Origin: a virus
Virus record (IMG/VR): IMGVR_UViG_3300032073_000347
Location: 1-20,256 of that record
DNA: 20,256 bases
Reading direction: 5' to 3' (one strand)
Shown here: piece after piece, positions 7,783 through 20,129 of the stretch
How the letters are laid out: each line of letters starts with the position of its first letter
Numbering within the stretch: the first letter of the stretch is position 1
The notes under the pieces: generated by a model
Told to the model about the DNA's origin: nothing
The model's input: the letters and a program-made list of their open reading frames with translations, nothing else
Databases searched by the model: none
Program-made: the position numbers and the translations under genes

Positions 7783-8358
7783 ATGGGTATAATAAACACA
7801 TTAGTAGTATTCAAAGTCCTCAAAATGCTTGTGACAAAGTTTAAAGACTTTGATGCATTCAAACTAGGTCTTATTGATAAGAACGGTAATAGAATCAAAT
7901 CTAAGGGTATAAACACCTCAGATGAGAAAGAATCTATGTCAATGTTGCATAGACTTGTATTCAATATCAAAAGAATCATACAAAAGGTACCATTCGGTAA
8001 GACTGCATTTGCCTCTTACGCAATTGCACTTGCACTTCTAAAAGAAAACTTAAATTTAAATGCAGACCAGATGGAAGAACTATGTGAAAAGTTCTATAGA
8101 CATCTAAAAGACGAAAATGTATTAGAGGCAGAGATGTTATCAGAGGCACACAAAGTAGGAACTCTGGATTTAGGAGAGACATACAATCTAAAAAGACAAC
8201 TCAAACAGAACTTCGATGAACAAGGAGAGTTTATCATATATCCTGAGAAGACTCCTGTTCACATCTTACAAGAACATAGTTTGATATTTGGTATAACCTG
8301 TTATATTGGTTATATCGATGAACATAGAGTATTGGTAACACAAGACGATGTATATTAA
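7783..8358 (+). CDS. conserved hypothetical protein of T4-like marine phages
   Basis: A 191-aa protein starting MGIINTLVVFKVLKMLVTKF, an amphipathic or hydrophobic N-terminus that could be membrane-peripheral. It continues DAFKLGLIDKNGN, LHRLVFNIKRIIQKVPFGKT and FASYAIALALLKENL. The Pro-Phe-Gly-Lys-Thr segment near residue 70 and the following Ala-rich helix are characteristic of an unannotated family I recall from T4-like phages. The C-terminus (ITCYIGYIDEHRVLVTQDD) is beta-like. It is expressed from the late promoter just upstream and overlaps the phosphatase gene by 11 nt. No function can be assigned. Confidence 0.8.
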   Translation: MGIINTLVVFKVLKMLVTKFKDFDAFKLGLIDKNGNRIKSKGINTSDEKESMSMLHRLVFNIKRIIQKVPFGKTAFASYAIALALLKENLNLNADQMEELCEKFYRHLKDENVLEAEMLSEAHKVGTLDLGETYNLKRQLKQNFDEQGEFIIYPEKTPVHILQEHSLIFGITCYIGYIDEHRVLVTQDDVY

Positions 8359-9115
8359 AGAAATATTAAAGATAGATGACCTGAAGTATGGTGATACCCC
8401 TAAAACATTTGATGCCAAACAGTGTAAGAAAATGTTTCGTGATGGTTGGTTAGAAGAAATAACTATTAGTCCACCACCTGCAAACTCATCTACACAAACT
8501 AGAAAAGAGATAATGGGTATGAAAGAGAACATGAAGAATCTTTCTGATGAACAGAAGAAAGTATACATCAATACAGACCATGATACTTCTTATTATATCA
8601 AAGAGTATATGTCCAACGAAGATTTAGATTGGGAAATAGAAGATATAGAAAAGATTATAAAGTCTGCTAAACATATTGGTAGATATTATAAGAATGAGTT
8701 TCAAAGACCAAGACCAAGACAAGTTGCAGAGAAACTAGGTATAGACTTCAAGTATATGGAGACTGAGACAACAGACTCACCTGCATATCCTTCTAATCAT
8801 GCCTTACAGGCAAAGGTAGTTGCACACTATTATAGTTCAATCTATCCAGAACATAAAACAAATTTACATATTATGGCAGAGAAATCTGCACAAGGAAGAG
8901 TTGATGCAGGCGTTCATTATCCTTCCGATAAAATGGCAGCTTATCAAGTTGCAGACCAGGCTATGAAGTTTTTTAAATATTCTAAGCTTGAAGAGGATGC
9001 ACCTATAAATGCAACAGGTTCAGCAGTATCTACAAATGTGCCTGTAGTAAGGAAAAAGAAGAATAAGTATGAACCATCTGCACTCTTTGACCTTATAAAA
9101 AATTACGCCAAGTAA
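8348..9115 (+). CDS. PAP2-family acid phosphatase-like protein
   Basis: A 255-aa protein with the complete three-part PAP2/acid phosphatase signature: K115-x6-RP (residues 122-123, within KNEFQRPRPRQ), PSNH at 148-151 (in place of the usual PSGH), and R184-x5-H190-x3-D194 (GRVDAGVHYPSD). In this family H190 would be the phosphate nucleophile and H151 the general acid. No signal peptide or membrane span is visible, so the enzyme should act in the host cytoplasm or be packaged in the virion. The N-terminal 100 residues are helical and charged; the C-terminal ~40 are a basic tail. The substrate is unknown; phosphomonoester or pyrophosphate hydrolysis is family knowledge. It is coupled to the upstream gene by overlap. 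Confidence 0.88.
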   Translation: MYIKEILKIDDLKYGDTPKTFDAKQCKKMFRDGWLEEITISPPPANSSTQTRKEIMGMKENMKNLSDEQKKVYINTDHDTSYYIKEYMSNEDLDWEIEDIEKIIKSAKHIGRYYKNEFQRPRPRQVAEKLGIDFKYMETETTDSPAYPSNHALQAKVVAHYYSSIYPEHKTNLHIMAEKSAQGRVDAGVHYPSDKMAAYQVADQAMKFFKYSKLEEDAPINATGSAVSTNVPVVRKKKNKYEPSALFDLIKNYAK

Positions 9116-10592: not shown

Positions 10593-11636
10593 ATGCTATG
10601 GTTAGAAAGGAAATACCTTTCAATGGTCGTATCGAGTCTCGATTTGGCCAAATGGAAGAATGATAATACATTAAATCACAGATGTCCATACTGTGGTGAT
10701 TCTTCTAAAAATCAGTATAAAGCGAGAGGATATCATTTTGCGGTAGAGCAGAGTTTTATCTATAAATGCCATAATTGTGGCAAATCTACATCATCGGTGA
10801 ACTTTCTTAAAGATAATTTTCCTGTGATACATAAAGAGTATATTAAAGAATGGTTAAAAGAAAGTGGAAAAAGTCCGAAACGACAACAAAAAATGCCTTC
10901 ATCAAGTGCATTCAAGTTCACTCCCAATCCAGATTTACTAAATAAAAATGTCGAGACAATGTCAGTAGAGAATCTCAGAGCAGTATGTCATGGTGCATAC
11001 GATAGAATTGTAAGCAGAGAGTATTTACAGAACAGAAAGATACCAGATGATGCAATTAAGAAACTCTGGTATGTCGACAATGCACAAGTTCTATCTCATT
11101 TACACACTAAGTATAATGAGAGAGTTCTTGGTAATGACCCTAGAGTCATTCTGCCATTCATTAGTGAGAATGGGGAGTTATTGGGTTTAACAGGTCGTGC
11201 AATCAATGATTCACCACTTCGTTATCTTACCATGAGATTCCAAGATGATGTTCCACTCATCTTCAACTATGAAAATGTGGACAAATCAAAGGCTATCTAT
11301 GTAACCGAAGGACCAATAGATAGTCTATTCCTACCCAACTCAATAGCAGTTGCAGGTAGTGATTTCAAAAAGATAGATGATAGTATAAAAGAAAACGCGA
11401 TACTCATTTACGACAATGAACCAAGAAATACAGAGATTCTTAAAAAATTAGACGAAGTTATAGACTTAGGTTGGTCTGTATGTTTGTGGTCGGATAAAAG
11501 AGTATCAGGATTGAAAGATATCAATGATATGATACAAAGTGGATTGACCACTTCTGATATAACTGATATAATTACTTCTAATACATATAATGGTCTTTCG
11601 GCAAAATTGAAGTTTAAGGAGTATAAGAAGAAGTGA
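10593..11636 (+). CDS. 61: DNA primase, T4 gp61-like
   Basis: A 347-aa protein, close to the 342 aa of T4 gp61. It makes the RNA primers for lagging-strand synthesis together with the gp41-type helicase. An N-terminal zinc finger uses C31, C34 (CPYCGDS), C59 and C62 (CHNCG). The TOPRIM catalytic core shows E239 in YVTEGPIDSLF, the acidic cluster IYDNE at 272-276, and KDINDM at 308-313. The start at 10593 is kept because the residues from ERKYLSMV resemble the N-termini of related phage primases. The alternative Met at 10623, preceded by AAAGGA, would give 337 aa and remove the leaderless problem. A GTGA overlap couples it to nrdA. Confidence 0.93.
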   Translation: MLWLERKYLSMVVSSLDLAKWKNDNTLNHRCPYCGDSSKNQYKARGYHFAVEQSFIYKCHNCGKSTSSVNFLKDNFPVIHKEYIKEWLKESGKSPKRQQKMPSSSAFKFTPNPDLLNKNVETMSVENLRAVCHGAYDRIVSREYLQNRKIPDDAIKKLWYVDNAQVLSHLHTKYNERVLGNDPRVILPFISENGELLGLTGRAINDSPLRYLTMRFQDDVPLIFNYENVDKSKAIYVTEGPIDSLFLPNSIAVAGSDFKKIDDSIKENAILIYDNEPRNTEILKKLDEVIDLGWSVCLWSDKRVSGLKDINDMIQSGLTTSDITDIITSNTYNGLSAKLKFKEYKKK

Positions 11637-13918
11637 ATTCAGAAATCAGAGTAGTTAAGTCGGATGGTTCCAAAGTTGAGATAAACCTAGATAAGATTCA
11701 TAGAATGGTAGAAAAAGCCTGTAAAGATATCACAGGTGTCAGTGAGTCAGCAGTAGAAATGAATAGTGGTCTACAATTCTTTGATGGTATAACAACACAA
11801 GAAATTCAAAAAATATTAGTTAAAAGTGCAAGTGATTTAATTTCACTTGAATCACCAAATTACCAATTTGTAGCAGCGAGATTATTACTATTTGGTATTC
11901 AGAAACAAGTATTCAATACTAAATGGAAAGATTCAGAGATATATCCACCACTCAGAGATATAGTGGAAAGAAATGTTGATTTTAAGGTCTACGATAAAGA
12001 TATCTTAAATCAATATACTGATGAAGAGTTTACAAAGATAAACACTTACATCAAACATCAAAGAGACTTTGATTTTACATATGCAGGATTACAACAAGTA
12101 GTAGACAAATATCTTGTGCAAGATAGGTCAACCAATGTTGTTTTTGAGACACCTCAGTTCATGTATATGTTAATTGCAATGACTCTTTTTCAAAACTATG
12201 ACAAAGAAGGAAGATTAGACTATGTCAAAAAATACTACGATGCAATCTCTACATTCAAGATATCGATACCAACACCAATTATGGCAGGAGTTAGAACACC
12301 ACTTAGACAATTTGCATCATGTGTTCTTGTCGACTCAGACGACACACTCGACTCTTTATTCAGCAGTGATATGGCCATTGGACGCTATGTTGCACAAAGG
12401 GCGGGTATCGGGATTAACGCTGGAAGAATTAGAGGCCTTGGTTCAAAGATTAGAGGTGGTGAAGTCCAACATACTGGAGTTATCCCATTCCTTAAAAAAT
12501 TTGAGGCAACAGTTAGAAGTTGCACACAAAATGGTGTTCGAGGCGGGTCAGCAACAGTTCACTTTCCAGTATGGCACCAAGAAATAGAAGACATTATTGT
12601 CTTAAAGAACAACAAAGGAACAGAAGATAATAGAGTTAGAAAACTAGACTATTCTATTCAGTTATCAGAACTATTCTATAAGAGATTCTTACAGAACGGT
12701 GAGATAACATTGTTCTCTCCTCACAATGTTCCAGGTCTTTATGAGGCATTTGGAACACCAGAGTTTGATGAACTCTATGAAAAGTATGAGAGAGCAACAT
12801 CTATTCCTAAAACAAAGGTAAGTGCAAGAGAATTATTTACAGATATATTAAAAGAAAGAGCTGAGACTGGCAGAATCTATATTATGAATATAGACCACTG
12901 CAATACCCACAGTAGTTTCCTTGACAAAGTTAACATGAGTAATCTTTGTCAGGAAATTACTTTACCAACAGACCCAATAGAACACATAGACGGAGAAGGA
13001 GAAATCGCATTATGTATACTATCTGCAATCAATGTAGGTATTATCAAAATGGAAGAAATGTCTAACTTGTGTGATTTAGCAGTGAGAGGACTTGAAGAAC
13101 TGATAGATTACCAAGAATATCCTGTTGTAGCGGCCGAGAAATCAACTAGAGCAAGACGAAGTCTTGGTATTGGTTATATCGGCCTTGCACATTTTCTTGC
13201 AAAGAACAAGGTTGAATATGGTTCTAGTGAGAGTCTACAATTAATACATGAACTTACAGAGAGTTTTCAATACAACCTATTATGTGCAAGTAATCAAATT
13301 GCATCAGAGAAAGGTGAATGTGATGGTTTTGCACATACAAAGTATGCAGAGGGAAAACTACCTATCGACCACTACAAAAAAGATGTTGACGACTTAGTTA
13401 AACCTAATTACAAATGTGATTGGGAAAGACTAAGAACTAGAATTAAAGTTCACGGTCTAAGACATTCAACATTGACTGCACAAATGCCTAGTGAATCATC
13501 TAGTGTTGTATCAAATGCAACCAATGGCATAGAACCACCTAGAGACCACTTGTCAGTTAAGAAGAGTAAAAAAGGAACACTCAAACAAGTTGTTCCACAA
13601 TATCAGATGTTAAAGAACTTCTATACCTTACTATGGGATATGCCATCTAACGAGGGTTATATCAAAATAGTTGCAGTAATGCAGAAGTTTTTTGACCAGG
13701 CAATATCAGGTAATTGGTCATACAATCCAGAAAACTATCCTAACGGAGAAGTTCCTGTTTCTGTTATGGCAAAAGACCTTTTAAACACATATAAATACGG
13801 ATGGAAAACATCTTACTATCATAATACTATGGATGGTAAACAAGAAGATGTTGTCGAAGAGTTACCTTTAGGTGATGAAACAAGTGAGGAAGAAGACTGC
13901 GATGCATGTGCAATCTAA
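11633..13918 (+). CDS. nrdA: class Ia ribonucleotide reductase large subunit
   Basis: A 761-aa protein (T4 NrdA is 754) that reduces ribonucleoside diphosphates to deoxy forms with NrdB. The start is GTG at 11633, overlapping the primase stop, with AAGGAG at 11616-11621. Residues ~3-90 are an ATP-cone-like allosteric domain (VVKSDGSKVEINLDKI). The redox pair is C230 (RQFASCVLV) and C461 (ALCILSA). The catalytic loop is N437-x-C439-x-E441 (NLCQEI). Radical-transfer tyrosines are Y728/Y729 (SYYHNT). The C-terminal swinging cysteines are C756/C759 (CDACAI), comparable to CAACKL in T4. All residues needed for activity are present. The protein aligns along its length with T4 NrdA as I recall it, e.g. 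ISIPTPIMAGVRTP and RAGIGIN. Confidence 0.97.
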   Translation: MNSEIRVVKSDGSKVEINLDKIHRMVEKACKDITGVSESAVEMNSGLQFFDGITTQEIQKILVKSASDLISLESPNYQFVAARLLLFGIQKQVFNTKWKDSEIYPPLRDIVERNVDFKVYDKDILNQYTDEEFTKINTYIKHQRDFDFTYAGLQQVVDKYLVQDRSTNVVFETPQFMYMLIAMTLFQNYDKEGRLDYVKKYYDAISTFKISIPTPIMAGVRTPLRQFASCVLVDSDDTLDSLFSSDMAIGRYVAQRAGIGINAGRIRGLGSKIRGGEVQHTGVIPFLKKFEATVRSCTQNGVRGGSATVHFPVWHQEIEDIIVLKNNKGTEDNRVRKLDYSIQLSELFYKRFLQNGEITLFSPHNVPGLYEAFGTPEFDELYEKYERATSIPKTKVSARELFTDILKERAETGRIYIMNIDHCNTHSSFLDKVNMSNLCQEITLPTDPIEHIDGEGEIALCILSAINVGIIKMEEMSNLCDLAVRGLEELIDYQEYPVVAAEKSTRARRSLGIGYIGLAHFLAKNKVEYGSSESLQLIHELTESFQYNLLCASNQIASEKGECDGFAHTKYAEGKLPIDHYKKDVDDLVKPNYKCDWERLRTRIKVHGLRHSTLTAQMPSESSSVVSNATNGIEPPRDHLSVKKSKKGTLKQVVPQYQMLKNFYTLLWDMPSNEGYIKIVAVMQKFFDQAISGNWSYNPENYPNGEVPVSVMAKDLLNTYKYGWKTSYYHNTMDGKQEDVVEELPLGDETSEEEDCDACAI
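13790..13797 (+). promoter_or_regulatory. TATAAATA inside nrdA, possible internal late promoter
   Basis: A perfect late octamer in the nrdA 3' coding region (it encodes part of NTYKYGW), about 105 nt before the oxygenase start. One or two such octamers are expected in coding sequence this AT-rich by chance, so a function is unproven. If active, it would give late expression of the oxygenase and nrdB without nrdA. Confidence 0.25.
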
Positions 13919-14903
13919 AAAAGATAAACTATATGATTTTGATGTACCTGTAGTAAAGAACAGAGGTGATAATGACAAAATTCAATGGGGTGGTAAAACA
14001 AATCAGACAACTTTAGATTTTGTGAACAACAGATATGTTGTATTAAGAGACTTCATACCTAAAGAACTCATCAGAATGACCATGGACACATGGAGAAGTA
14101 TTGAGAATGACGATAGGTCTTTCAATGCACACTTTAGAGCAGAAGATGAGTTGACTCACAATACACCAGAAGAACAAAGAAAAAAATCACACGGAGCATA
14201 CAACTTTCCTGTCGCAGTAGGCCTACATACTTGGCTAAAAAATAAATTAAACAATGTTTTAGATATAAAACTACAAGAGACATACTCTTATAGTAGAAAA
14301 TATTACAGAGGTGCTTCACTATCTGCACATACAGATAGACCATCTTGTGAGATTAGTGTTACCTTTCCTTTAGATTATAAGACTGATGATAACACACCTT
14401 GGAAGATATGGTTGAATAATGAGGGTAACTGGATTAATTGTCAAGACAAAGCAGGACAACAATTCATTAAATCAAACACCCAAGATATTCATAGAGGTAA
14501 ATCAATAGAACTTGAACTAGGTGATGTTCTGTTATATCAAGGTCCTAATATACCACATTGGAGAAATACATTAGTTGGTGATTATAGTTATCATATGTTT
14601 CTACATTTCTTCAATCAGAGAAGTCGTATGACTCAGATGGCAGGTTTTGAATATCAAGAACACCATAAACATGGAGTTGTTCCTAATAGTTCTCCTAATA
14701 GTAGGAAATTTATATTAGATTGGGACGGTTGTGTAAGCAAATGGGACAACACTAGAAGAATGGGTGCTGGTGAATTAGAACCATGGATTGATAATGTGTA
14801 TAGTCAATTTAGAGGTGAACACCATTTATATGTAAATAATTATTCATATCTAACAGGTAAAGTAGAAGAAGATTTAATAGTCAGTGCAGAGGATTTAGAA
14901 TGA
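13902..14903 (+). CDS. 2-oxoglutarate/Fe(II)-dependent oxygenase (prolyl 4-hydroxylase-like), between nrdA and nrdB
   Basis: A 333-aa protein. The iron triad is read as H143-x-D145 (SLSAHTDRPSCEISVTFPL) with distal H219 in GPNIPHWRNT, followed by basic residues that could bind 2-oxoglutarate. The segment LELGDVLLYQGPNIPHWRN is typical of the prolyl-4-hydroxylase/2OG-Fe(II) superfamily. The ATG at 13902, 17 nt inside nrdA and downstream of GAGGA at 13886-13890, is preferred to 13872, which would need a longer overlap. A C-terminal ~85-residue extension (FILDWDGCVSKWDN onward) lies beyond the core. It is coupled to nrdB by ATGA. The substrate is unknown: a protein side chain, a nucleotide or a lipid are all possible. 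It is not part of the usual RNR complex. Confidence 0.88.
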   Translation: MHVQSKKDKLYDFDVPVVKNRGDNDKIQWGGKTNQTTLDFVNNRYVVLRDFIPKELIRMTMDTWRSIENDDRSFNAHFRAEDELTHNTPEEQRKKSHGAYNFPVAVGLHTWLKNKLNNVLDIKLQETYSYSRKYYRGASLSAHTDRPSCEISVTFPLDYKTDDNTPWKIWLNNEGNWINCQDKAGQQFIKSNTQDIHRGKSIELELGDVLLYQGPNIPHWRNTLVGDYSYHMFLHFFNQRSRMTQMAGFEYQEHHKHGVVPNSSPNSRKFILDWDGCVSKWDNTRRMGAGELEPWIDNVYSQFRGEHHLYVNNYSYLTGKVEEDLIVSAEDLE

Positions 14904-15997
14904 CAGTATTCAATAAAAATAATATAGACTTCACTAAGAATAAGATATTCTTTGGTGAAGAATTGAATACACAAAGATTTGATGAGTTTAAATATCCTAT
15001 ATTTGACAAACTAACACAAAGACAACTAAGTTTCTTTTGGAGACCAGAAGAAGTATCTTTACAGAAAGATAGAGCAGATTATCAGACACTAACTGATGCA
15101 CAAAAACACATATTTACCTCAAATCTGAGGTATCAAACTTTACTCGACTCAGTTCAAGGTAGGGCACCAAGCATAGCATTTTTACCTTTTGTGACCTTGC
15201 CTGAACTAGAGTCTTGTATTATTACATGGGACTTCATGGAAACTATTCATAGTAGAAGTTATACACACATTATTAAGAATGTATACCCAAATCCAAGTGA
15301 TGTATTCGACACTATACTAGAAGAAGATGCAATTATTAAGAGAGCAGAAATGGTTACGGAAAAGTATGACAACTTTATCCAACTAGGTAGAAGGAGATTA
15401 CTAGGACTCAAAGTTGATGATTATGACCTATACAAGGCATTATATCTGGCACTTATATCAGTAAACATCTTAGAAGGAATTAGATTCTTTGTATCATTTG
15501 CCTGTAGTTTTGCATTTGGTGAACTCAAACTGATGGAAGGAAGTGCAAAGATTATATCTCTTATTGCAAGAGACGAATCACAACACCTTGCAGTATCACA
15601 ACACATACTAAAGTGTTATAAGAAACATGAGAACGATAAACTTATGTTGAAAGTAATTAAAGATTGTGAACCAGAAGTATACAAAATGTATGAAGATGCA
15701 GTAGAACAGGAAAAAGAATGGGCAGAGTTTTTATTTAAAGATGGTTCTATGATAGGTTTATCAGTACCATTACTAGGTCAATATGTAGAGTTTATTGCAA
15801 ACAAAAGATTAAGAACAATTGGTTTAGAACCAATATATGACATAAGTTCAACTAACAATCCTTTACCATGGACACAACATTGGTTTAACAGTAGAGGATT
15901 ACAAAATGCACCACAAGAGACAGAGATTGAATCTTATCTAATTGGTGGTATAAAACAAGATGTTGATGATTCAACATTTGAGGACTTTAAATTATGA
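14900..15997 (+). CDS. nrdB: class Ia ribonucleotide reductase small subunit
   Basis: A 365-aa protein (T4 NrdB is 388) that holds the diiron-tyrosyl radical cofactor for NrdA. Metal ligands are visible: D83 (QTLLDSVQGR), E114 and H117 (DFMETIHSRSYTH), E192 (NILEGIRFF), E226 and H229 (ARDESQHLA). The radical tyrosine is Y121, so this is the classical tyrosyl-radical type and not a Tyr-less subclass. The C-terminal tail ends FEDFKL, consistent with the peptide that docks onto NrdA. It starts in an ATGA overlap with the oxygenase gene and ends in another ATGA with the small membrane protein. No intron or homing endonuclease interrupts it, unlike T4 nrdB. Confidence 0.97.
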   Translation: MTVFNKNNIDFTKNKIFFGEELNTQRFDEFKYPIFDKLTQRQLSFFWRPEEVSLQKDRADYQTLTDAQKHIFTSNLRYQTLLDSVQGRAPSIAFLPFVTLPELESCIITWDFMETIHSRSYTHIIKNVYPNPSDVFDTILEEDAIIKRAEMVTEKYDNFIQLGRRRLLGLKVDDYDLYKALYLALISVNILEGIRFFVSFACSFAFGELKLMEGSAKIISLIARDESQHLAVSQHILKCYKKHENDKLMLKVIKDCEPEVYKMYEDAVEQEKEWAEFLFKDGSMIGLSVPLLGQYVEFIANKRLRTIGLEPIYDISSTNNPLPWTQHWFNSRGLQNAPQETEIESYLIGGIKQDVDDSTFEDFKL

Positions 15998-16385: not shown

Positions 16386-16619
16386 ATGATAGAGATATAC
16401 AGTAAACCAGCATGTCCGTATTGCACAAGAGCAAAACAGTTATGTGAAATGAAAGGGTATGAATACACATACTTAATGTTAGATGAAGACTTCACTAGAG
16501 AAGAACTCTTTGAGAGATTTCCTGGTGCAAGAACATTTCCACAAATCAAAGTTCATGGTGAGAACATAGGTGGATTCACTGAACTAGAAGAATGGTCTAA
16601 AGGGTATAGAAAACTATGA
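16386..16619 (+). CDS. grx: glutaredoxin
   Basis: A 77-aa thioredoxin-fold protein, the usual small glutaredoxin length. The CPYC active site is at C10-C13, the cis-proline motif TFP at 50-52, and the glutathione-binding GG at 62-63 (NIGGFTEL). It should reduce the C-terminal disulfide of NrdA during dNTP synthesis, as T4 NrdC does, and its place three genes after nrdB fits. GGAG at 16376-16379 lies six bases before ATG, sharing a base with the previous stop. An ATGA overlap leads into the next mini-gene. Confidence 0.95.
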   Translation: MIEIYSKPACPYCTRAKQLCEMKGYEYTYLMLDEDFTREELFERFPGARTFPQIKVHGENIGGFTELEEWSKGYRKL

Positions 16620-16979: not shown

Positions 16980-17122
16980 TGGATAGTGAGAAGGAGTTAT
17001 TATATTGTGATAACTGTATGTGTGAATGTGAAATCGAACATGACGGAGACCATTTGATAAGGTTTTGTCCGTTTTGTGGTGATTCTTATGGTGATGAAAT
17101 AGAAGATGGAGATATATTGTAA
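16979..17122 (+). CDS. 47-aa zinc-ribbon protein
   Basis: MDSEKELLYCDNCMCECEIE, then a hydrophobic turn and FCPFCGDSYGDE. C10-x2-C13 and C30-x2-C33 form two knuckles about 17 residues apart, with extra C15 and C17: a minimal zinc ribbon. It starts at TAATG with the previous gene and overlaps the next by 17 nt. The knuckle CPFCGDS resembles the CPYCGDS of the primase zinc finger in the same operon. Function is unknown; nucleic-acid or protein binding is the usual role of such ribbons. Confidence 0.75.
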   Translation: MDSEKELLYCDNCMCECEIEHDGDHLIRFCPFCGDSYGDEIEDGDIL

Positions 17123-17429
17123 AGACAAGTGGATGTTGCATAATGCCGTATTCTTGGCAGAACAACTAGACATTTCCACTAAATTCTGCGTAGTCAATAT
17201 CAAAAGACTACCCCCTACCATGCCTCAAAAAGGCCTAATTGAGTTCTCTAAATCAGATGAGGACATAGACATATTCATTAAATACGATAACGAAAGGTTT
17301 ATAACCCTTGCACACGAAATGGTGCATGTCCGACAGATATTAACTACTGGAATATGTGATGAAATAGAGGCTGGAAGACTAGAAAATACGCTGAAAACGC
17401 TTGCCAAAGCGGACATAAATTTGTTATAA
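17106..17429 (+). CDS. HEXXH putative metallopeptidase (107 aa)
   Basis: RFITLAHEMVHVRQILTTG carries the zincin motif H70-E71-x2-H74, preceded by a hydrophobic helix. E87 or E89 in CDEIEAGRLE could be the third zinc ligand, in the spacing of a short gluzincin-like fold. At 107 aa it is small for a secreted protease and has no signal peptide, so it should act in the cytoplasm, perhaps on phage or host proteins. Related unannotated HEXXH mini-proteins occur in T4-like cyanophages. The peptidase call rests on the motif alone. Confidence 0.75.
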   Translation: MEIYCKDKWMLHNAVFLAEQLDISTKFCVVNIKRLPPTMPQKGLIEFSKSDEDIDIFIKYDNERFITLAHEMVHVRQILTTGICDEIEAGRLENTLKTLAKADINLL

Positions 17430-17436: not shown

Positions 17437-17946
17437 ATGAAAAGTGAGATAAAAAGAATTTTCCTTGATATGGACGGTGTGTTGGCCGACTTCCAGACTG
17501 GTGCTTCTAAACTTGCAGGTGTTAACATAACACCAGATAGTGCAGGACACAAGTTATACGATGCAAGGAAAGAAGAATTAACAAACAAAAGGTTGTTCAG
17601 AAACTTACCAACAATGGTCGATATGTATGATTTACTTGCATATGTCAGACATACAGGCATACCGTGGGAAATACTAACGGCTGCTGGTGAAGTGAACAGA
17701 GAGTTATGTGTGTATGATAAAAACGAGTGGATTAGAGAGTTTGTAGACCCTACCATTGCTGTTACTTGCACATTTACAGGTAGTCAGAAAGGTATGTATG
17801 CCTTTGAAGGAAGTGTTCTTATTGATGATAGACAAAAGAACATAGACCATTGGATTGAGAATGGTGGTATTGGTATTGTTCATACTAGTGCAGAGAATAC
17901 TATCAACGAATTAAAACTTTTAAGAAATGGTGTGGGTGGTGAATAA
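17437..17946 (+). CDS. HAD-superfamily 5'(3')-deoxyribonucleotidase-like phosphatase
   Basis: A 169-aa protein with the HAD motif I sequence IFLDMDGVLADF (nucleophile D11, general acid D13). Motif II threonine is in ILTAAG (T81), motif III lysine is near K118 (TGSQKGMYA), and motif IV is the acidic pair D130-D131 (VLIDDRQKNI). Size and motif I match the NT5C-type cytosolic deoxynucleotidases, which dephosphorylate dNMPs. With ribonucleotide reductase just upstream it could adjust dNMP pools, but substrate choice is inferred. The first Met must be used, since the next one lies inside motif I. This makes the apparent lack of a leader hard to avoid. Confidence 0.85.
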   Translation: MKSEIKRIFLDMDGVLADFQTGASKLAGVNITPDSAGHKLYDARKEELTNKRLFRNLPTMVDMYDLLAYVRHTGIPWEILTAAGEVNRELCVYDKNEWIREFVDPTIAVTCTFTGSQKGMYAFEGSVLIDDRQKNIDHWIENGGIGIVHTSAENTINELKLLRNGVGGE

Positions 17947-19271: not shown

Positions 19272-20129
19272 ATGACTTGGAGTAAACCATCTACAACTGA
19301 ATTCAAACCTGCAATCAATTGTGAACAGATTGATATGTTTTCAATACCTATTTTAAGAGGTGATTTACAAGAAATCAATATAGAAGAAGTTCAACAAGAC
19401 TGTAGAAGATTAGTTAAAGAAGCTTCACAAAGACATGGTGATAATAATTCTATGAATTACACCACATACTTTGATGAAGAACTCAGACAAGAAATGATTA
19501 AACTTCCTTGGTATGCTAATTTTGCAGAACAAGTAAAAGATACTTACATACAATTTATACAAATCTGTTATGGCCAACAGGTCGGCCATATCAATAGAGC
19601 AGATTTACATTTGTTTGCATGGATTAATGTATATGGTGCACCACATCATCATGTTCCACATAATCATATAAACTCTTATATGTCAGGCACATGGTATCTA
19701 AAAGTGGAAGAGAATACACCACAACCTATACAATTTCTAAATCCAAATCCTGCAATGGCACATGCATTGAATTTACCTATTGAAGAATTTGGTAGTGAGG
19801 CAATACCCAATATGAAAAATATTGGAAGTGCATATTATCATGACCAAGTGGAGTTCTATCCTGTTGAGAATCAATTTCTATTATGGCCAAGTGCATTGAT
19901 GCACGGTGTTCCTATGAATCACGATGATGTTGACCCTAATTACGAAAGAATATCTATATCATTTAATCTACATCACCCAATAGGAGTTCCTAATCAGAAT
20001 GAGGCAGGTGAAGATTTAGAATATGAATTTCTTGAACAACCACCAGTCGAAGAACCAATAGAAGAATTACCAAGTGCAGTAGATGACGCTGCTGAAGTTA
20101 TGAGTAGACCAAAAGGAGTCTTATTTTGA
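19272..20129 (+). CDS. 2-oxoglutarate/Fe(II) oxygenase, TIGR02466-like
   Basis: A 285-aa protein. The double-stranded beta-helix core has HNHINSYMSGTWYLKV (H130, H132), the distal histidine H211 in LLWPSALMHGVPMN, and the 2OG-binding arginine R226 in ERISISFNLH. This pattern, including 'NSYMSGTWYL' and 'RISISFN', matches the family I know as TIGR02466, putative 2OG-Fe(II) oxygenases of phages and bacteria. The last ~50 residues are an acidic, Pro/Glu-rich tail (EQPPVEEPIEEL) outside the core. Only a 2-nt gap separates it from the o-spanin and the ribosome binding site is weak. The substrate is unknown. Confidence 0.87.
   Translation: MTWSKPSTTEFKPAINCEQIDMFSIPILRGDLQEINIEEVQQDCRRLVKEASQRHGDNNSMNYTTYFDEELRQEMIKLPWYANFAEQVKDTYIQFIQICYGQQVGHINRADLHLFAWINVYGAPHHHVPHNHINSYMSGTWYLKVEENTPQPIQFLNPNPAMAHALNLPIEEFGSEAIPNMKNIGSAYYHDQVEFYPVENQFLLWPSALMHGVPMNHDDVDPNYERISISFNLHHPIGVPNQNEAGEDLEYEFLEQPPVEEPIEELPSAVDDAAEVMSRPKGVLF

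Follow-up and report, generated by a model that had tools for sequence, protein, structure and literature searches.

A gene family named "ferrochelatase" in PHROGs (phrog_2954) has been noted in marine phages at least since 2010, when it appeared in a table as "Hyp. with ferrochetalase domain" (PMC3037559). In 2022, every pelagiphage encoding the ferrochelatase was reported to have an adjacent 2-oxoglutarate (2OG) oxygenase, and both were read as haem enzymes (PMC9599517), while in 2024 phrog2954 was used as a separate seasonal gene category (PMC11561400). No paper correcting the label was found in the literature. A member of this family lies between the two genes of a ribonucleotide reductase (RNR) in a virus fragment from IMG/VR, the 20,256 bases of which constitute the whole stretch of DNA analysed here (the window). 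The genes most relevant to the following discussion are:

11633-13918, plus strand: nrdA, class Ia RNR large subunit, GTG start (Pfam PF02867, E 9e-134, PF00317 and ATP-cone; phrog_84).
13902-14903, plus strand: predicted prolyl-4-hydroxylase (P4H)-like Fe(II)/2OG oxygenase of about 333 aa, ATG to TGA, from the family labelled "ferrochelatase" (phrog_2954, E 4e-38).
14900-15997, plus strand: nrdB, class Ia RNR small subunit, ATG start (PF00268, E 1e-54; aligned to E. coli NrdB).
16386-16619, plus strand: glutaredoxin, downstream and kept in the clade (PF00462, E 4e-14; synteny).
17437-17946, plus strand: 5'-deoxynucleotidase-like gene, downstream and kept in the clade (PF06941, E 4e-6; phrog_2643, E 3e-34; synteny).
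19272-20129, plus strand: second 2OG-Fe(II) oxygenase, from another sequence family and kept in the clade (PF13759, E 3e-14; phrog_81, E 2e-29; synteny).

The RNR genes are ordinary class Ia, as judged from Pfam and from the alignment of the window NrdB with E. coli class Ia NrdB (E 4e-118), in which the radical tyrosine region is aligned and the ETIHSRSYTHII segment conserved. The nearest cultured relative of this NrdB is that of Pelagibacter phage HTVC008M (69%). The oxygenase frame overlaps nrdB by an ATGA (14900-14903) and nrdA by 17 nt (13902-13918), as the first-pass annotation had described, the latter value presuming the ATG at 13902; upstream in-frame starts are also open (ATG 44 nt, GTG 35 and 47 nt before the nrdA end), and among relatives several have an in-frame ATG at 17 nt and others only at 26-44 nt. 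These overlaps would suggest translation in amounts similar to those of RNR. Elsewhere in the window, a small conserved gene (17106-17429) has an HExxH-like stretch (HEMVH) and possibly a metallopeptidase fold, and a gene at 8348-9115, kept upstream in the clade and fast-evolving (median identity 47%), has no PHROG match and carries a GVHYPSD stretch reminiscent of PAP2-type phosphatases.

Pfam alone did not recognise the oxygenase gene. No Pfam 2OG domain matched either the RNR-linked members of the family or those lying beside other oxygenases (cassette members), scans of phrog_2954 with Pfam and NCBIfam gave no relevant model, and the search of PDB chain sequences with the family profiles returned only noise. 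The call of a 2OG-Fe(II)-type oxygenase, made initially from the bare sequence, was nevertheless borne out by the HxD...H motif and by Foldseek searches with an AlphaFold2 model. The model of the window oxygenase, built from a 51-sequence alignment, has a mean pLDDT of 87.5, and its PDB matches (612 at E <= 0.001) are led by PHD2 and P. putida prolyl-4-hydroxylase (E 3e-9 to 9e-9) together with lysine hydroxylase/halogenase relatives. With a second member modelled at pLDDT 94.3, a double-stranded beta-helix fold is supported by the predicted structures of two members and their Foldseek matches to PHD2/P4H, and on these models a P4H-like oxygenase fold and enzyme class can be considered very probable. 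The residues that would form the active site are encoded as follows:

14295-14297, plus strand: R132 codon, arginine on the strand preceding HxD (strand 124-135 in the model).
14328-14336, plus strand: H143-T144-D145 codons, HxD part of the predicted Fe(II) site (sequence read directly).
14556-14564, plus strand: H219-W220-R221 codons, distal Fe(II) histidine and arginine.

The HxD...H triad (H143, D145 and H219) is invariant in the 51 sequences, as are R132, R146, R221 and H235, although part of this conservation results from selection, the loci of one search having been chosen by patterns covering D145-S152 (DRPSCE) or the H219 region (YQGPNxH); loci chosen without those patterns keep the same residues. 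The Fe site, whose loss would have undermined the proposed enzyme activity, is thus intact in sequence, and the structure prediction and Foldseek match P4H-like oxygenases. The usual 2OG-binding basic residue of these enzymes sits about 9-10 positions after the distal histidine (R383 in PHD2). In the family alignment of the RNR-linked oxygenase, no conserved R/K was found at H219+9 to +13, which is a real gap in the argument for the predicted use of 2OG. Members of the 2OG-Fe(II) oxygenase superfamily differ in where this residue lies, so its absence is compatible with membership. From the conservation pattern, R132, R221 or H235 may replace the usual 2OG-anchoring residue, R132 with R221 being the candidate binder of the 2OG carboxylate.

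The same evidence bears on the name of the family. All 51 sequences match phrog_2954, and tblastn with the window oxygenase retrieved 146 phage records, mostly from cyanophages and pelagiphages, with about 26-30% identity and mostly named ferrochelatase among the matches listed. The RNR-linked and cassette profiles align with probability 100 and E 1e-46 (hhalign), and the second modelled protein, a distant short cassette "ferrochelatase" (L134:1439-2086), has P. putida P4H as its best PDB match (E 8e-9). The Pfam ferrochelatase model (PF00762) matched none of 35 cassette and none of 20 RNR-linked members at the thresholds used, and it was absent from 6 phage records, four of them isolates with a family gene annotated "ferrochelatase", while 10 of 14 control genomes matched. 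Neither model (window oxygenase or L134 member) had a ferrochelatase among its 50 best PDB matches, and the matches in a viral structure library included the S-SM1 "Ferrochelatase" itself, along with proteins named prolyl 4-hydroxylase. Moreover, the S-SCSM1 family gene forms a fusion with a phrog_61 2OG oxygenase domain, which the original record names 2OG-Fe(II) oxygenase, and one record title reads "putative ferrochelatase / putative Fe(II) dependent" oxygenase. The label therefore looks wrong for phrog_2954, being contradicted by sequence searches and by predicted structures. That the protein is truly a ferrochelatase, inserting iron into porphyrin, would agree with the name used by PHROGs (phrog_2954, phrog_3531) and many phage records and with the 2010 description as hypothetical with a "ferrochetalase" domain (PMC3037559), but it can hardly be entertained given the lack of Pfam matches in cassette members, RNR-linked members and phage records alike, and the 2OG oxygenases that match both predicted folds. 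The strongest consequence of this work is the correction of a family label used in two studies (PMC9599517, PMC11561400). If the family itself consists of 2OG oxygenases, the published co-occurrence would be one of oxygenases beside oxygenases, and inferences on phage haem metabolism would need revision.

In the 26 loci found with the window oxygenase, the gene was always positioned between nrdA and nrdB (26/26). To avoid the circularity of an oxygenase-based search, nrdB and nrdA were also used as queries. The nrdB scan found the gene in the gap of all 12 contigs with a complete interval and nrdB identity >= 74%, and in none of 62 at lower identity; with nrdA it was in the gap of 8 of 8 close contigs and in 0 of 62 more distant complete intervals. 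Combined, the two scans showed 15 different close contigs, all of which carry the oxygenase in the nrdA-nrdB gap; most of the junctions still overlap or abut. In one distant contig (L309) a 28% relative is found outside the gap, downstream of nrdB and on the other strand. Eight contigs of the clade (43-140 kb) have one phrog_2954 gene each, always the one between nrdA and nrdB. The oxygenase gene is therefore embedded in the RNR operon, as first proposed for the window, and this arrangement, which recurs too consistently to be due to chance, is conserved in a phage lineage. Its retention there suggests selection for co-expression.

In other clades the nrdA-nrdB gap holds phrog_3704, dNMP kinase-like, IMPDH-like or glycosyltransferase-like genes, or other 2OG oxygenases, and in many it is empty. 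A phrog_3704 gene occupies it in L061 (1014-2185), where a phrog_81 2OG oxygenase follows, and in HTVC008M (L190:3822-4999); the family is named ferredoxin and carries a PurM-like note in one record, two incompatible names, and no Pfam domain was found in it. In two contigs the family member shares the gap with an adjacent 2OG-Fe(II) oxygenase of a different kind (PF13640, phrog_61; L004:7388-7966 and L005:1431-2006).

Away from RNR, most cassette-type viral contigs that were examined have the family gene next to at least one other 2OG oxygenase, the annotated cases lying beside tail, neck or structural genes, and no nrdA or nrdB was recognised in these contigs up to 6 kb on each side of it. 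In bacteria, copies are found in SAR86 and Lysobacter, among others. Two bacterial contigs (L194 and L195) carry the phage nrd arrangement, and otherwise only L207 has nrd genes, distant ones, nearby. Some gammaproteobacterial copies come after a pan operon and have a PanD-like gene upstream of them, a mutS-like gene is found near two Lysobacter copies, and the SAR86 copies differ in their neighbours; searched for a functional clue, none of these bacterial neighbours points to nucleotides. One gammaproteobacterial chromosomal member downstream of a PanD-like gene (L220:5845-6585) ends in a SEC-C-like cysteine motif, CPCGSGLRFRDCHG. In a tree of 75 sequences, all RNR-linked copies and three chromosomal copies from SAR86 form one clade (support 100/99), with SAR86 attaching somewhere among the deepest RNR-linked branches. 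This sequence tree fits the gene having arisen once in the nrd operon and been inherited from then on, with a transfer, one way or the other, between these phages and SAR86. The three SAR86 copies (L196, L197 and L198) are the closest cellular relatives, two of them looking truncated or frameshifted, and may hint at SAR86 or another gammaproteobacterial host for the phage clade. The nrdA-nrdB position is thus retained but restricted to one lineage. The first-pass annotation had looked to the neighbours of homologs for a link with RNR, and their tabulation gives a divided answer: the RNR-linked clade keeps the position between nrdA and nrdB, whereas other members are mostly found in oxygenase clusters or on chromosomes, away from nrd.

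The genes of the operon also differ in evolutionary rate. Compared pairwise over 25 loci, the oxygenase has a median identity of 43%, NrdA one of 81% and NrdB one of 87%; the second oxygenase, which 19 of the 25 loci contain, likewise has a median of 43%. For seven close pairs, dN/dS ranges from 0.12 to 0.38 in the oxygenase and from 0.03 to 0.12 in NrdB. The oxygenase is under purifying selection yet variable, evolving far faster than RNR. Together with the wider distribution of the family, this argues against RNR or nucleotides as the substrate, although fast evolution may also reflect weak constraint.

In the explanation that we put forward, and to which we would give an even chance of being right as a whole, the gene product is a P4H-like Fe(II)/2OG hydroxylase from a family present in phages and bacteria; it would be translated with RNR during DNA replication, would bind Fe(II) and 2OG and would hydroxylate a host or virion polypeptide, not RNR or a nucleotide; the nrd position would supply timing and expression coupling, not shared chemistry. 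We lean to a polypeptide substrate, tentatively and at slightly under an even chance, because of the P4H-type fold neighbours, the cassettes near virion genes and the SEC-C-like tail of one chromosomal member. The fold does not fix the substrate, since enzymes acting on small molecules (lysine hydroxylase/halogenases, HygX, EctD and PhyH) are among the fold matches as well. A small metabolite is a less likely but quite plausible substrate. The corresponding role, in which an amino acid or another metabolite is oxidised or 2OG is drawn down to alter host nitrogen sensing, finds some backing in structural matches that include BesD-like lysine hydroxylase, HalA/B/D, HygX and EctD, and such drawdown has been proposed for cyanophage 2OG oxygenases (PMC3037559). 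We nonetheless hold this role somewhat unlikely, as an enzyme whose substrate is a metabolite in wide use should change more slowly than this one does, and no metabolic gene consistently accompanies the family from one location to another.

The first-pass annotation had suggested a link to RNR, among other possibilities through O2 and Fe or through nucleotide chemistry. The oxygenase would then modify NrdA or NrdB, support formation of the diiron-tyrosyl radical or oxidise a (deoxy)nucleotide that the operon produces, as in base modification. The overlapping frames and the retention of the gene in the nrdA-nrdB gap throughout the clade speak for such a partnership, as do the glutaredoxin and deoxynucleotidase-like genes kept downstream and an NrdB apparently of the class Ia type that depends on O2 and Fe. 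However, family members outside the one clade are not near nrd, more distant marine phages with nrdAB have no copy in the gap, the same gap holds other genes in other clades, and within the clade the oxygenase diverges at about the rate of the second oxygenase and much faster than either RNR subunit. A joint action with RNR is accordingly unlikely, and the link through shared chemistry finds no support. The oxygenase being a phage-specific RNR accessory enzyme, dedicated to tuning or maturing the phage RNR or to oxidising its nucleotide, is decidedly unlikely; a nucleotide or nucleic acid as substrate is improbable, and RNR itself highly so. A further possibility, somewhat doubtful but deserving consideration, is that the position is meaningless, the nrdA-nrdB gap being an insertion spot of which the clade merely inherited one resident. 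The different residents in other clades, and the many gaps with none, would agree with this, while the purifying selection on the oxygenase, its mostly overlapping or abutting junctions and its presence in every one of the 15 close contigs, down to an nrdB identity of 74%, go against it. As history, an insertion spot is compatible with the polypeptide hydroxylase proposed above, and the two are not exclusive. For this hydroxylase, the RNR-linked clade offers a defined, co-located member, present once per contig examined, which makes the targets of marine phage 2OG oxygenases more directly testable.

Compared with described proteins, the family shares only its name with true ferrochelatase (PF00762, HemH), there being no sequence match and the fold matches being different. 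Other phage 2OG-Fe(II) oxygenases (phrog_61/PF13640 and phrog_81/PF13759) are of the same predicted enzyme class, lie beside the family in cassettes and are in one case fused to it (S-SCSM1); a profile link to a mixed alignment of such oxygenases was not obtained (probability 0.3% for both profiles), the comparison profile being thin and its set small and divergent. The best PDB fold matches are double-stranded beta-helix oxygenases, namely P. putida prolyl-4-hydroxylase (4j25, and 4iw3 with EF-Tu) and human PHD2/EGLN1, from which the window oxygenase differs by its low identity (11-18% in the listed matches) and by lacking a basic residue at the usual place beyond the distal histidine. The marine phage "ferrochelatase" of phrog_2954/T4-GC 615 (HTVC008M, S-SM2, Mosig and S-SCSM1) belongs to the same family (phrog_2954 E 4e-38, profile probability 100), with the same HxDRPxC...HWR motifs. 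Outside the RNR-linked clade, members mostly measure about 180-260 aa and are located on chromosomes or in oxygenase clusters, whereas those linked to RNR are of about 290-360 aa, have an insert and a C-terminal tail, and lie between nrdA and nrdB.
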